From assembly GCA_023473585.1 (NCBI GenBank), contig JAMCYU010000011.1, positions 1 to 32,997 on the forward strand: a stretch of 32,997 bases of DNA. Reading direction: 5' to 3'. The stretch comes from Patescibacteria group bacterium (GTDB lineage Bacteria; Patescibacteriota; Microgenomatia; JAMCYU01). Shown piece by piece: positions 15,647-20,651 of this stretch (positions within the stretch are counted from its first letter, which is position 1; every line of letters starts with the position of its first letter). Position numbers and translations under genes: made by a program. The notes below the pieces were generated by a model. It was not told the DNA's origin. It made no database searches and saw nothing but the letters and a program-made list of their open reading frames with translations.

Positions 15647-16906
15647 ATGTTAGACATAAATTTTATAAGACAAAATCCGGACCAGGTCAAAAAAGGTTTA
15701 AAGGCTAAACAGCTGGAAAGTCAGCTTGTTGATCAGGTTCTGGATTTGGATGAGAAAAGACGAAAATTCTTAAAAGAGATTGAGATCCTAAGAGCCGAAA
15801 GAAATAAAATCGCCCTGATGGGAAAAGTTTCTCAGGAGGGAAAAGCTCTAAAACTAAAACTCCAAAAATTAGAGCCGGATTTAAAAAAAGTGGAAGAATC
15901 TTTGTCTGATTTGCTGAGGCAAATTCCCAATCTTCCGGCTGCGGACGTTAAGACAGGCAAAGACGAGAGTGAAAATGAAATTATCAAAAAATGGGGAGAA
16001 CCGACTAAATTCCTTTTTGAGCCGAAGGATCACTTAGTTATCGGTGAAGCCTTAGGAATAATTGATATTGAAAGAGCAGCTAAAGTTTCAGGAACACGTT
16101 TTTATTATTTAAAAGGAGCAGGCGTTGTTTTAGAAATGGCTCTTATACAGTTGGCGTTGAAGACCCTAACCAAAGAGGGTTTTATTCCCGTTATTCCCCC
16201 GGTTTTAATTAAAAAACAGGCAATGGCCGGTATGGGTTATTTGGAACATGGCGGAGAAGAAGATATGTATGTTTTAGAAAAAGATGGTTTGGTTTTGGTT
16301 GGCACTTCCGAACAATCAATCGGACCAATGCACATGGACGAGGTTTTAGACGGAAAAAAATTACCGTTAAGGTATGTGGGATTTTCAACCTGTTTCAGGC
16401 GAGAAGCCGGTGCTTACGGTAAAGACACACGGGGAATTTTGCGTGTTCATCAATTTGATAAAGTGGAAATGTTTAGTTTCACCAAACCGGAAGAATCGGA
16501 CAAAGAACATGAATTTTTGCTTTCTTTGGAAGAAAAATTATTCCAGAGCCTTGGAATTCCCTACCAGGTTTTAAAAATGTGTTCCGGTGATTTAGGGGCG
16601 CCGGCGGCCAGAAAATATGATCTTGAGGGTTGGATGCCGGGACAAGGGAAATATCGAGAAGTCACCTCAACTTCCACCTGCACCGATTATCAATCCCGAA
16701 GACTTAATATCAAATATCAGGAGACTAATGACCAAAAACCAGCGACCAATTACGTCCATATTTTAAACGGGACGGCTTTTGCCATCGGCCGAACCATCAT
16801 CGCAATTTTGGAAAATAATCAGCAGGAAGACGGTTCCGTTTTAATTCCCGAGGTCTTACGTGATTATACCGGTTTTGAAAAAATTTCTCCCCCAAACTCT
16901 CGTTAA
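15647..16906 (+). CDS. serS: Seryl-tRNA synthetase
   Basis: A 419-residue class II synthetase that charges tRNA-Ser. The N-terminal antiparallel coiled-coil arm (about 25-105) clasps the long variable arm of tRNA-Ser. The core holds TSEQSIGPMH, motif 2 in FSTCFRREAGAYGKDTRGILR, the serine-site EVTSTSTCTDYQSRR, and motif 3 in LNGTAFAIGRTIIAILEN. Length is standard. ATG 15647 is preceded by AGAAGAAAG, a weak purine-rich ribosome binding site. Its end overlaps the next gene by about 47 nt. A TrpR-like operator lies upstream. Confidence 0.95.
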   Translation: MLDINFIRQNPDQVKKGLKAKQLESQLVDQVLDLDEKRRKFLKEIEILRAERNKIALMGKVSQEGKALKLKLQKLEPDLKKVEESLSDLLRQIPNLPAADVKTGKDESENEIIKKWGEPTKFLFEPKDHLVIGEALGIIDIERAAKVSGTRFYYLKGAGVVLEMALIQLALKTLTKEGFIPVIPPVLIKKQAMAGMGYLEHGGEEDMYVLEKDGLVLVGTSEQSIGPMHMDEVLDGKKLPLRYVGFSTCFRREAGAYGKDTRGILRVHQFDKVEMFSFTKPEESDKEHEFLLSLEEKLFQSLGIPYQVLKMCSGDLGAPAARKYDLEGWMPGQGKYREVTSTSTCTDYQSRRLNIKYQETNDQKPATNYVHILNGTAFAIGRTIIAILENNQQEDGSVLIPEVLRDYTGFEKISPPNSR

Positions 16907-17507
16907 AATTTCCTCACCCATAAACGGCGAAATTTCGGTGGTGGAACAATTCGGCCGCAGAAAAATTTTAATTGCCAATTTAACTCAGTCCGGGCCGATG
17001 GTGGAAAAAATCTGGGAACCGATTATTAAAAAAATCGCCAAAGACGAGAATAAAATTGCCGAGGTTTTAATTCTCGGGTTGGGCGGCGGTTCTTTGGTTA
17101 AGCTTGCCAATAATTATTTTAAAAAAATAAAAATTACCGGTTTAGAAATTGATCCAATAATCATTGATTTGGGGAAAAAATATTTTTATCTTGACAGTTT
17201 TTCCAATTTAAAAATTAAAAATGAGAGTGCCGATTTATTTCTTAACAAAAACAAACTTAAATTTGATTTAATTTTCGTTGATTTATATCTAGGTGATAAA
17301 GTTCCAAAAAATTGCGAAAGCGAAATATTTTTAGAAAATCTTAAAAAAAGTTTAACAAATAACGGCATGATTGTTTTTAATCGTCTTTACTATAAAAATC
17401 ACATTTTTGAAGCCAAAAAATTTCTTGACAAATTGCACAAAATATTTCATTATTTATCTTGTAGAAAGTATTTAACAAATTTTTTTATTTTGGTAAAAAA
17501 AGATTGA
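16860..17507 (+). CDS. Spermidine-synthase-like SAM-dependent methyltransferase fold protein
   Basis: Up to 215 residues. A short beta N-terminal part (ISSPINGEISVVEQFGRRKILIA) precedes a Rossmann-like core with LILGLGGGSLVKLA (glycine-rich nucleotide loop, about 70-83), ITGLEIDPIIIDLGKKYF (acidic end of strand 2) and FDLIFVDLYLGDKVP (motif IV region). This pattern is that of the spermidine synthase/SpeE-like family, which in reduced genomes often has unknown substrates. The start is uncertain: GTG 16860 overlaps serS by 47 nt, and a TTG at 16875 in the same frame is possible. No polyamine genes are nearby. A minigene and terminator follow. Confidence 0.65.
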   Translation: MIIPVLKKFLPQTLVKISSPINGEISVVEQFGRRKILIANLTQSGPMVEKIWEPIIKKIAKDENKIAEVLILGLGGGSLVKLANNYFKKIKITGLEIDPIIIDLGKKYFYLDSFSNLKIKNESADLFLNKNKLKFDLIFVDLYLGDKVPKNCESEIFLENLKKSLTNNGMIVFNRLYYKNHIFEAKKFLDKLHKIFHYLSCRKYLTNFFILVKKD

Positions 17508-17552
17508 AAAATATTTTCTGCAAAGGTTTAATCCAAAGGAGGTGACTGCCCC

Positions 17553-17582
17553 ATGGCCAAGAAAAAAAAGAAGAAGAAGTAA
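17553..17582 (+). CDS. Poly-lysine minigene (MAKKKKKKK) with ideal Shine-Dalgarno
   Basis: ATG at 17553, Ala, then seven lysine codons (AAG and AAA mixed) and TAA at 17580-17582. The 11-nt AAAGGAGGTGA at 17535-17545 is a full match to the 16S rRNA 3' tail and ends 7 nt before the ATG, giving one of the two best ribosome binding sites in the window for its smallest ORF. Poly-lysine runs are known to slow ribosomes. The ORF is followed at once by overlapping hairpins and a terminator (17583-17680). It could be a leader peptide that senses translation, a free basic micropeptide, or a chance pairing of SD and A/G-rich DNA; the first is favoured by the layout. Too short for homology. Confidence 0.5.
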   Translation: MAKKKKKKK

Positions 17583-17632
17583 TTGCAGTAGATTTTTCTT
17601 GCTGCAAGAAACGTCTGACGTTTCAAGAAAAA
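17583..17632 (+). repeat. Cluster of mutually exclusive hairpins after the poly-lysine ORF
   Basis: Several stems compete for the same bases: TTGCAG (17583-17588) with CTGCAA (17602-17607); TTTCTTG (17595-17601) with CAAGAAA (17605-17611); GAAACG (17608-17613) with CGTTTC (17619-17624); and TTTTTCTTG (17593-17601) with CAAGAAAAA (17624-17632). They start directly after the stop codon of the minigene and precede the terminator. Their stability was judged by eye only. Confidence 0.55.
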
Positions 17633-17646
17633 AGATAACTGCCCAG

Positions 17647-17680
17647 CCCTGGACCAATTGGTTCAGGGTTTTGGTTTTTT
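17647..17680 (+). terminator. Intrinsic terminator before the Tat-like gene and secA
   Basis: A stem of nine pairs at 17647-17668 (CCCTGGACC against GGTTCAGGG, one G-U, loop AATT) followed by TTTTGGTTTTTT (17669-17680). It may simply end the serS transcript, or act as the terminator arm of the preceding minigene/hairpin region. Confidence 0.8.
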
Positions 17681-17711: not shown

Positions 17712-17717
17712 TATAAT
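17712..17717 (+). promoter_or_regulatory. -10 element for the small Tat-like gene
   Basis: Perfect TATAAT at 17712-17717, with ATG 17730 12 nt downstream. No good -35 at 17-18 bp (best TCGAAA at 17688). It follows the terminator, so it is likely a fresh transcription start. Confidence 0.45.
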
Positions 17718-17729
17718 AGCGATGAAAAT

Positions 17730-17936
17730 ATGGTATTAAGCAGAAGAGAACTTTTAATCTATACGGGAGCGATCATCGGCGGCGGCGCAGCTTCTTATTT
17801 CCTGGATCGTCAGCGCCGACTTGATCAATGTGTGCAAAAAAATCTCCGAGTCTTAAGTAAAATAGTTGGTGGCCGACCCACGACCGAATACGAACAGCAC
17901 ACGGTGCGGCAATCCTGTGAGCGGCAAATTAAATAA
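17730..17936 (+). CDS. Small protein with Tat-like N-terminal signal, function unknown
   Basis: A 68-residue protein that I do not recognise. It begins MVLSRRELLIYTGAIIGGG, a twin-arginine pattern (S-R-R-x-L-L) followed by a short hydrophobic stretch, then a basic, partly helical tail (DRQRRLDQCVQKNLR) with two cysteines and no domain signature. It may be membrane-tethered or exported. ATG 17730 was chosen because the longer frame (from 17658) would start inside the terminator hairpin and before the -10. The gene lies 60 bp upstream of secA on the same strand, so a link with protein export is possible but only by position. Confidence 0.5.
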   Translation: MVLSRRELLIYTGAIIGGGAASYFLDRQRRLDQCVQKNLRVLSKIVGGRPTTEYEQHTVRQSCERQIK

Positions 17937-17980
17937 TTTTCTTCTTTAACTTCAAGCTGGTTTTGTCCCTTAAAAAATGC

Positions 17981-17986
17981 TAAAAT
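17981..17986 (+). promoter_or_regulatory. -10 element of secA
   Basis: TAAAAT at 17981-17986, 10 nt before the secA ATG at 17997, giving a 5' UTR of about 3-4 nt at most. The -35 is poor. No ribosome binding site is seen, so translation is probably (near-)leaderless. Confidence 0.4.
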
Positions 17987-17996
17987 CTACTCACTC

Positions 17997-20651
17997 ATGA
18001 TTCCGTTTCTTGCCAAATTTTTAGATTCCAACGAAAGGGAATTAAAAAAACTTTTACCTTTGGTTGCCAAAATAAATTCTTTGGCCGAAAAAACACAAAA
18101 ACTTTCCGACGAAAAACTTCTAAGTTTAGGGGCAGAATTTAAAATCAGAGTCAGCGGGGGTGAAAGTCTGGACGACCTCTTGCCGGAAGTTTACGCCACC
18201 GTCAGGGAGGCAGCCTACCGAACCATCAACGAGAGACCCTTTGACGTTCAACTCATGGCGGCGGTTACTTTTCATCAAGGGAGAGTAGCCGAACAAAAAA
18301 CCGGAGAAGGAAAAACCCTTTCGGCTTCACCGGCTTTATACTTAAATTCTTTAACCGGCCGGGGTGTTCATCTGGTAACCGTTAACGATTATTTGGCGCG
18401 GCGTGATTGCGGTTGGATGGGGCCGATTTTCCATGCCTTAGGGGCAACCTGCGCGGCCATGATTCACGATCAGTCTTTTCTTTATGATCCGACGTTTGAT
18501 GATCCGACAGCCCAGGATTGGCGTCTAAAACATTTACGCCCGATTACAAGAAAAGAAGCTTATTTGGCCGATATCACTTACGGGATCAATTCCGAATTCG
18601 GTTTTGATTACCTAAGGGACAATATGGTGACGGAGATTAAAGAGGTTACCCAGCGTGATTTGAATTTTGCCATTGTTGATGAGGTTGATTCTGTTTTAAT
18701 CGATGAAGCCAGAACCCCGCATATTATTTCCGCTCCGCAAGAAGAAGCGACCCAAAAATATTACGATTACGCCAGATTAATTGAAAGACTTCAGCCGGTT
18801 ATGGATTTTACCATTGACGAGAAAATGCGAACCGCCGCTTTGACCGAACATGGCATTGCCAAAATCGAAAAAATGCTGGGAGTGCCTAATCTTTACGAAA
18901 AAGATTTTGCGACGGTTCATCATCTGGAGGCGGCTTTAAAAGCGAAAAGTTTATTTCATCGCGATAAGGATTATGTCGTTAAGGATAATGAAGTTGTCAT
19001 TGTTGATGAATTTACCGGCAGGCTTTTGATGGGCCGGCGCTATTCCGAAGGTTTGCATCAGGCGATTGAAGCCAAAGAAGGCGTTTCGATTCAACGGGAA
19101 TCAAGAACGCTGGCGACGATTTCTTTACAGAACTATTTTCGGATGTACCAAAAACTGGCCGGCATGACCGGAACCGCGGCCACGGAATCGGAAGAATTCC
19201 ATAAAATTTATAAACTTGACGTTTTGATCATTCCCACCAATAAGGAGATGATCAGAATTGATCATGCGGATATGGTTTACAAAACGATGAGGGCCAAATA
19301 TGCGGCTGTTGCTCGTGACGTGGCGGCCTGTTATCAAAAGGGGCAGCCGGTTTTGGTCGGAACGACTTCAATTGAAAATAACGAAATTGTTTCCGATCTT
19401 TTGACTCATCAGGGGATTCCGCATCAGGTTTTAAACGCCAAACAGCATGAAAAAGAAGCCTCAATTATTGCTCAAGCCGGTAAAATAAAATCAGTCACTG
19501 TCGCGACGAACATGGCCGGCCGGGGTGTTGACGTGATTTTGGGTGGCACGCCCCCGGACAAATATACCGTGACCGACAAAAAACAGTTTGATGAGGAACA
19601 TAAACTTTGGCAAAAAGCTCACGAAGAAGTGGCTAGGCTTGGCGGTTTGCATGTGATCGGGACCGAACGGCACGAATCAAGAAGAATTGACAATCAACTG
19701 CGAGGTCGGTCGGGAAGACAGGGCGACCCTGGCTCTTCACGCTTTTTTGTCTCCCTGGAAGATGAAATTATGCGGCTTTTCGGCGGCGAGCAGATTGCCA
19801 AACTTATGGATACTTTTAAAATGCCCGAAGACGTGCCTTTGGAGCATCCGATGGTTTCCCGGGCGATCGAACAAGCGCAGGTTAAGGTCGAAGGTTTTAA
19901 TTTCGACGCCCGAAAACATTTGGTTGACTATGATGATGTTTTAAACAAACAAAGAGAAATTATTTATAAACGCCGGAAAAAACTTTTGTCAGGAGAAGCT
20001 TTAAAAGAAGAAATTTTAGAAAAAGTCAGTCAGGATATCACCAATTTTACCTTAATGTACTTTCCTGAAGGTTACACCCAGCCGGAATTGGAAAAAATCG
20101 TTCAGGAGTTTGTGAGTATTATCCCCTTTGATGAAAATTCGCAAAAACAACTTATGATTCAAGTTAGTCAACTTAAAACCAGTCAGGAAATTACCGAATT
20201 TTTGGTAAAAATCGCCCGCGATCTTTACGAACAAAAAGAAAAACAGGTAACGCCAGAGGTCGCGCGGCAAATTGAAAGATGGGTGGCGCTTTCTATCATT
20301 GATAATCTTTGGATGGATCATTTGGACGCGATTGATGATTTACGGGAAGGCATCGGTCTTCGCGGTTATGGGCAAAGAGATCCTTTAATTGAATATAAAA
20401 ACGAAGCCTACACGATGTTTGAAAGATTATTATCAACGATTGATTACGAAATCGTCCACCGGATTTTTAAAATCCAGGTTACCTCCCAGCCACAAGTCTC
20501 GCCGCAAAGAATAATGACGACATCTTCGGCCGGAGAAGTCAGTCAGGGAAGTCCAAAACCGATAAGTAAGCAAAAAATAGGGAGAAACGATCCCTGCTGG
20601 TGCGGCAGCGGCAAGAAGTGGAAAAAGTGCCATTATCCTCAATTAGGTTGA
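17997..20651 (+). CDS. secA: SecA preprotein translocase ATPase
   Basis: An 884-residue motor that pushes preproteins through SecYEG. Nucleotide-binding domain 1 has the Walker A TGEGKT (about 101-106) and DEVDSVLIDEARTP (Walker B/DEAD region). NBD2 contains VTVATNMAGRGVDVILGG and the arginine-rich GTERHESRRIDNQLRGRSGRQGDPG signature. The helical scaffold and wing regions follow, with LWMDHLDAIDDLREGIGLRGYGQ. The C-terminus has an intact SEC-C zinc motif, GRNDPCWCGSGKKWKKCH, which binds SecB or ribosomes in other bacteria. An insertion around residues 160-180 (YDPTFDDPTAQDW) resembles that of other candidate-phylum SecAs. The CDGSH gene starts 2 nt after the stop. Confidence 0.97.
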   Translation: MIPFLAKFLDSNERELKKLLPLVAKINSLAEKTQKLSDEKLLSLGAEFKIRVSGGESLDDLLPEVYATVREAAYRTINERPFDVQLMAAVTFHQGRVAEQKTGEGKTLSASPALYLNSLTGRGVHLVTVNDYLARRDCGWMGPIFHALGATCAAMIHDQSFLYDPTFDDPTAQDWRLKHLRPITRKEAYLADITYGINSEFGFDYLRDNMVTEIKEVTQRDLNFAIVDEVDSVLIDEARTPHIISAPQEEATQKYYDYARLIERLQPVMDFTIDEKMRTAALTEHGIAKIEKMLGVPNLYEKDFATVHHLEAALKAKSLFHRDKDYVVKDNEVVIVDEFTGRLLMGRRYSEGLHQAIEAKEGVSIQRESRTLATISLQNYFRMYQKLAGMTGTAATESEEFHKIYKLDVLIIPTNKEMIRIDHADMVYKTMRAKYAAVARDVAACYQKGQPVLVGTTSIENNEIVSDLLTHQGIPHQVLNAKQHEKEASIIAQAGKIKSVTVATNMAGRGVDVILGGTPPDKYTVTDKKQFDEEHKLWQKAHEEVARLGGLHVIGTERHESRRIDNQLRGRSGRQGDPGSSRFFVSLEDEIMRLFGGEQIAKLMDTFKMPEDVPLEHPMVSRAIEQAQVKVEGFNFDARKHLVDYDDVLNKQREIIYKRRKKLLSGEALKEEILEKVSQDITNFTLMYFPEGYTQPELEKIVQEFVSIIPFDENSQKQLMIQVSQLKTSQEITEFLVKIARDLYEQKEKQVTPEVARQIERWVALSIIDNLWMDHLDAIDDLREGIGLRGYGQRDPLIEYKNEAYTMFERLLSTIDYEIVHRIFKIQVTSQPQVSPQRIMTTSSAGEVSQGSPKPISKQKIGRNDPCWCGSGKKWKKCHYPQLG

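Follow-up and report, generated by a model that had tools for sequence, protein, structure and literature searches.

We characterized the region upstream of secA in a 32,997-nucleotide stretch of DNA (hereafter, the window), in which the features given below with coordinates lie on the forward strand. The gene serS precedes a gene encoding a spermidine-synthase-like methyltransferase (16860–17507; PF01564, E = 7.8e-9), downstream of which lies a compact unit consisting of a Shine–Dalgarno (SD) sequence, a minimal open reading frame (ORF), hairpins and an intrinsic terminator. The best-scoring promoter site for the unit (17425–17453; TTGACA at 17425–17430, a 17-nt spacer and CATTAT at 17448–17453) falls within the 3′ end of the methyltransferase ORF. 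The SD sequence (AAAGGAGGTGA; 17535–17545), which is kept in relatives, stands 7 nt 5′ of the ATG of a micropeptide ORF that reads MAKKKKKKK-stop (17553–17582; codons ATG GCC AAG AAA AAA AAG AAG AAG AAG TAA). Hairpin 1 (17583–17607), the counterpart of the A:B hairpin of relatives, starts right at the end of the stop codon and is followed by hairpin 2 (17608–17624), a palindrome (GAAACGTCTGACGTTTC), and by the terminator (17645–17680), which has an 11-bp stem and a U-tract. A preliminary description of this DNA had listed the SD sequence, the Met-Ala-Lys7 ORF, the hairpins and the terminator, all of which are present at the coordinates checked. It had also placed a small Tat-like protein and then secA downstream; indeed, a 68-codon ORF (17730–17936) with a twin-arginine-like N terminus (SRRELLIYTG) and its own −10 box (TATAAT; 17712–17717) lies between the unit and secA (17997–20651). 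This ORF yielded no Pfam match and, in the relatives read, was not seen in the serS–secA interval. The secA gene has an extended −10 element of its own (TGCTAAAAT; 17978–17986), 10 nt 5′ of its ATG, that recurs in relatives.

Computational folding of the region in the window gave a better structure than shuffled sequences (z = −2.3; 5/200). The claim that the overlapping stems exclude one another was not upheld—an alternative stem (TTTTTCTTG/CAAGAAAAA) exists, but the two states are very unequal in the window (−9.0 kcal/mol versus −17.3 kcal/mol for the two hairpins together, that is, about 8 kcal/mol weaker). Two other candidate explanations were rejected: GAAACGTCTGACGTTTC is not a dispersed operator or repeat, as it occurs once in the genome of the window, and programmed frameshifting on the A8G stretch would enter +1 and −1 frames that are open for 32 and 17 codons, respectively, beyond the stop codon of the window but are unconserved.

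In Levybacteria and in a sister family, the unit (SD sequence, short Lys/Arg-rich ORF, hairpin and intrinsic terminator) lies in the interval from serS to secA, and Curtissbacteria-type genomes carry a corresponding unit at a different locus. Searching relatives (drawn from outside the order of the window) with the raw DNA interval returned short, chance-like matches only, and it was pattern and model searches that found the related units. A pattern of SD sequence, ATG and six Lys codons matched 15 of 374 genomes of the class, and the reversed control pattern matched none; 13 of the 15 matches, including that of the window, precede secA and the other two precede a glycosyltransferase gene. The same pattern matched 89 stretches in the GTDB contig collection, where the short-ORF matches were mostly from Levybacteria, with one further Microgenomates record that has the ORF ahead of secA and one Curtissbacteria record that has it ahead of a glycosyltransferase gene. 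These matches, in the class genomes and the GTDB contigs alike, dispose of the objection that the ORF and SD sequence might not be conserved; the unit is kept. A combined RNA and sequence model, built from 38 elements with the window left out and run on the 374 genomes, located exactly the unit of the window in its genome (E = 2.3e-6) and also matched 34 genomes of family f16, four of f29 and seven of f7 (E of about 1e-4 or lower). Outside f1, f7, f16 and f29, the model gave weak matches that were discarded as mostly rplL or other genes with a common SD sequence and MAK start, and a phylum-wide sample of 380 genomes (about 350 of other classes) gave no match outside the class. Among the secA upstream regions of 40 further class genomes, picked across families, only the two from f29 contained the unit.

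In f7, the units lie between two glycosyltransferase genes and not near secA; this second context has its own terminator, in a region that is different but internally conserved, and the neighbouring gene has its own −10 element. At six of the f7 loci (L201, L202, L203, L204, L007 and L008), a AGACTTTGCAAAGTCT-type hairpin stands behind the minigene, followed by GCCCACCTTAACGG...AACGGAAGGTGGG and a T-run, with a conserved internal motif. A SecA tree placed f16 and f29 as sister groups with full support; a larger clade without resolved branching contained the window together with the other Microgenomates record. Given that this clade includes families without the unit, a single origin followed by losses is possible.

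Eight amino acids (K, R, A, T, P, G, S and V) make up all 37 distinct peptides, 9–26 residues long, that the 52 distinct ORFs encode. Although a single transition turns a Lys codon into a Glu codon, the 52 ORFs specify no acidic residue, whereas within-ORF nucleotide shuffles produced a mean of 85 (minimum, 53); the K+R fraction was 0.875 compared with 0.64 in the shuffles. Peptide length changes by whole codons, with K/R swaps and insertions of A, G, S and T; variants at the secA loci of f16 include MAKKRKKRK, MPAKKKAAKKKKK and MARKKAKRKKRKKRKK. Because acidic residues are absent and K/R is retained through frame-preserving changes, selection seems to act on the peptide, and protein-level selection for positive charge is strongly supported by these sequences. 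In composition, the one property on which the likeness is based, the longest forms linked to secA (MPAKKKTTKRKTTTKRTTKKTTKKRK and MAAKAKKRTTKKTATKRTTKKRK) are similar to histone-H1-like tails, and a Pfam search with the three longest secA-linked forms gave no match. At locus L233 (about 1015–1110, read on the minus strand; G258:C45), we observed a separate 31-amino-acid H1-tail-like gene (MPVKKKAKKKTVRKVAKKKVTKRKVAKKKRK) with an SD sequence as in the MAK7 unit. The genome with this gene also has a MAK7 unit, and the 31-amino-acid gene is possibly a longer relative of the micropeptide.

Lysine codon choice in the minigenes departs from that of the surrounding genes. AAA accounts for 0.35 of Lys codons in the minigenes and for 0.80 in the genes beside them, the minigene share being the lower one in 50 of 51 loci, and the longest A-run is at most 8, compared with a mean of 12.9 simulated under random synonymous choice. 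In Escherichia coli, ribosomes slide on runs of at least 11 A, and iterated AAG is translated slowly but with the frame kept and a full-length product (PMC4363877). Runs of three or more Lys in ordinary genes of these loci (few cases) are also richer in AAG (0.43–0.44, with AAA at 56–57%), so that part of the shift in the minigenes is general. With its A-runs short of the 11-A threshold, the ORF looks tuned for complete synthesis rather than for stalling.

Transcription of secA appears to be separate from that of the unit. A promoter-like TTGACA-17-CAYNAT element recurs about 30–120 nt 5′ of the micropeptide ORF in relatives, including those without the methyltransferase gene; as it is kept in f16, in which serS ends too close for that gene, the element is not kept for coding. 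In several families of the class (the window and L151–L190), serS, the methyltransferase gene and secA apparently follow directly on one another, and f16 has no room for the methyltransferase gene. Past the terminator, an extended −10 element (TGNTAAAAT) stands mostly 6–13 nt before the secA ATG in 45 of 49 loci, compared with 3% of shuffles, and a −10 element at the corresponding place is also found in many secA genes that lack the unit. In unit-bearing loci, the secA mRNA is probably transcribed separately and probably leaderless. More widely in the class, secA start codons often lie 6–13 nt past a −10 box (L151–L190 and the f16 and f29 loci), suggesting leaderless secA mRNAs.

On the basis of these features, the interval is probably a complete, stand-alone gene for a polycationic micropeptide that is selected for its charge and its complete synthesis, with secA transcribed separately. 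The sequence contains what a stand-alone protein-coding gene needs—its own promoter, an SD sequence, an ORF under protein-level selection and a terminator—and the basic micropeptide that the preliminary description had offered as one of two readings is strongly supported by charge conservation, by these dedicated signals and by the two genomic contexts. The gene would have its own sigma-70-type promoter, a near-perfect SD sequence, a nine-codon ORF (9–26 in relatives), and a hairpin and an intrinsic terminator, and would yield a short polycation selected for positive charge and for synthesis to completion; secA would be transcribed from its own promoter, and its adjacency would reflect a shared locus and not control in cis. 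We infer from composition that the peptide most likely acts as a very small nucleic-acid-binding or charge-neutralizing agent of the histone-H1-tail type, presumably transcribed, translated and made in large amounts. A functional protein of only nine residues would be extremely short, and this counts against reading the interval as a gene.

The RNA may matter in its own right. A segment B has two alternative partners in most f16 members: A, which extends from the stop codon, and C, with which it forms a hairpin that has the loop UGAUCA. In f16, this UGAUCA hairpin immediately behind the ORF is more strictly conserved than the peptide. Alternative distal A:B stems differ in sequence with pairing kept (L012, L019, L020 and L038). 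An 18-nt palindrome (ACCAATTGATCARTTGGT) behind the ORF occurs in exactly one copy in 40 of 73 f16 genomes, and all parsed copies precede secA; a dispersed DNA operator or repeat was rejected on the grounds of this single copy. In f29, both the B:C pairing and the UGAUCA loop are kept while the stems change (GAAUACCA/UGGUAUUC and UCCAAAG/UUUUGGA), and at one locus (L212) the loop has moved into the terminator loop. The unit could thus encode a dual-function or regulatory RNA of about 200 nt that acts in trans through the UGAUCA hairpin, with translation of the ORF controlling RNA folding or lifetime; the constancy of the loop and the single-copy palindrome favour such an RNA, and a protein or a second RNA could bind at the loop. 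However, f7 and the window lack the UGAUCA hairpin and have other hairpins in its place, yet retain the SD sequence and basic ORF; Rfam searches at gathering and relaxed thresholds gave sub-threshold matches only and nothing credible; and an RNA role alone does not explain why charge is kept as peptide length and sequence vary. As an explanation of the unit, an RNA of this kind is rather unlikely, and a dual role, in which the peptide gene also carries an active RNA hairpin, may apply.

A translation-sensing attenuator of secA, the other reading in the preliminary description, would work as a functional analogue of secM: slow translation of the Lys run would shift the hairpins and hence read-through into secA. 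The position of the unit before secA is conserved in three families, a terminator stands before secA, and because B in most f16 members pairs with either C or with A, which includes the stop codon, a ribosome at the stop codon would alter the fold. Against this, the leaderless-type secA promoter lies past the terminator, and a further gene with a promoter of its own stands in between in the window; the B:C hairpin stops short of the terminator stem, which no hairpin overlaps; and at least 9 of 41 secA-linked elements have lost the exclusivity of the pairings, as B is duplicated in L013, L014, L021, L117 and L137 (so that both hairpins can form) and the A arm is missing or the hairpins are separate in L022, L141, L150 and L172. 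Codon choice avoids stalling, and the f7 units lie away from secA. A fold switch may be present in some lineages and is not part of the conserved core of the unit, and we regard attenuation of secA as possible but quite unlikely. As the peptide appears to be kept by selection for positive charge, the unit resembles a genuine micro-protein gene rather than a stalling switch for secA.

The very strong SD sequence and minimal ORF would also suit a mere device for loading ribosomes, by which the transcript is protected or punctuated, with the peptide as a by-product; the lack of acidic residues and the retention of K/R across frame-preserving changes indicate selection on the peptide and make such a device very improbable. 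A chance A-rich stretch beside a good SD sequence, conceivable in a low-GC genome, is refuted by the empty reversed control set against 15 genomes with forward matches, by model matches across families and by the acid-free peptides.

If the interval is a polycationic micropeptide gene, conservation over several uncultured families, with promoter, SD sequence, terminator and charge all selected, gives it a strong claim to a place among the shortest protein genes known to be conserved. Gene finders ignore ORFs under about 30 codons, and such a gene would therefore be missing from annotations; nothing relevant to polylysine micropeptides of these bacteria emerged from our search of the open literature. 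More tentatively, and with some doubt, we propose that a Microgenomates lineage depends on a near-pure polylysine peptide (at least nine residues, from its own unit) that works as a polyamine or protamine encoded in the genome and controls the charge of the nucleoid or ribosome; its gene would rank among the smallest conserved protein genes put forward for bacteria. The longer relatives of H1-tail type that share these genomes would, on this view, mark the polylysine peptide as the reduced end of a series. A real micropeptide gene would make nucleic-acid packing in ultra-small cells directly testable, and would illustrate that an attenuator-looking sequence beside secA can be an ordinary separate gene.

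Several known systems share features with the unit. In E. coli, SecM likewise involves a small ORF and hairpins between an upstream gene and secA. A SecM-type monitor has an arrest motif near its C terminus and an export signal, and secA lies on the shared mRNA with its SD sequence masked by a hairpin. Neither an arrest motif nor a signal sequence was found in the 9–26-residue peptides, which are limited to K, R, A, T, P, G, S and V and are too short to exit the ribosomal tunnel; instead of a shared mRNA, a terminator and then a separate predicted secA promoter intervene (extended −10 in 45 of 49 loci), and the unit also occurs at non-secA loci. Attenuators of the trp/his leader-peptide type similarly combine a run of a single regulatory amino acid (here, Lys), alternative hairpins and a terminator. 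The unit differs in that the downstream gene is outside lysine metabolism, no antiterminator shares the terminator stem, and stalling-prone codons are avoided (AAA is depleted and A-runs are at most 8). Bacterial histone-H1-like proteins (Hc2 of Chlamydia, AlgP and lysine-rich tails) also consist only of K, A, R, T, P, V, S and G, vary in length and lack acidic residues, and the micropeptides have the same acid-free, K/A/T/P/V/R-rich composition; the three longest secA-linked forms match no described family in Pfam, however, and the micropeptides have 9–26 residues with no folded part, in contrast to more than 100 residues in the histone-H1-like proteins. Bacterial minigenes and uncharacterized small ORFs share the very short ORF and strong SD sequence, whereas the unit has a conserved dedicated promoter and terminator, spans several families and shows the signature of selection for charge.
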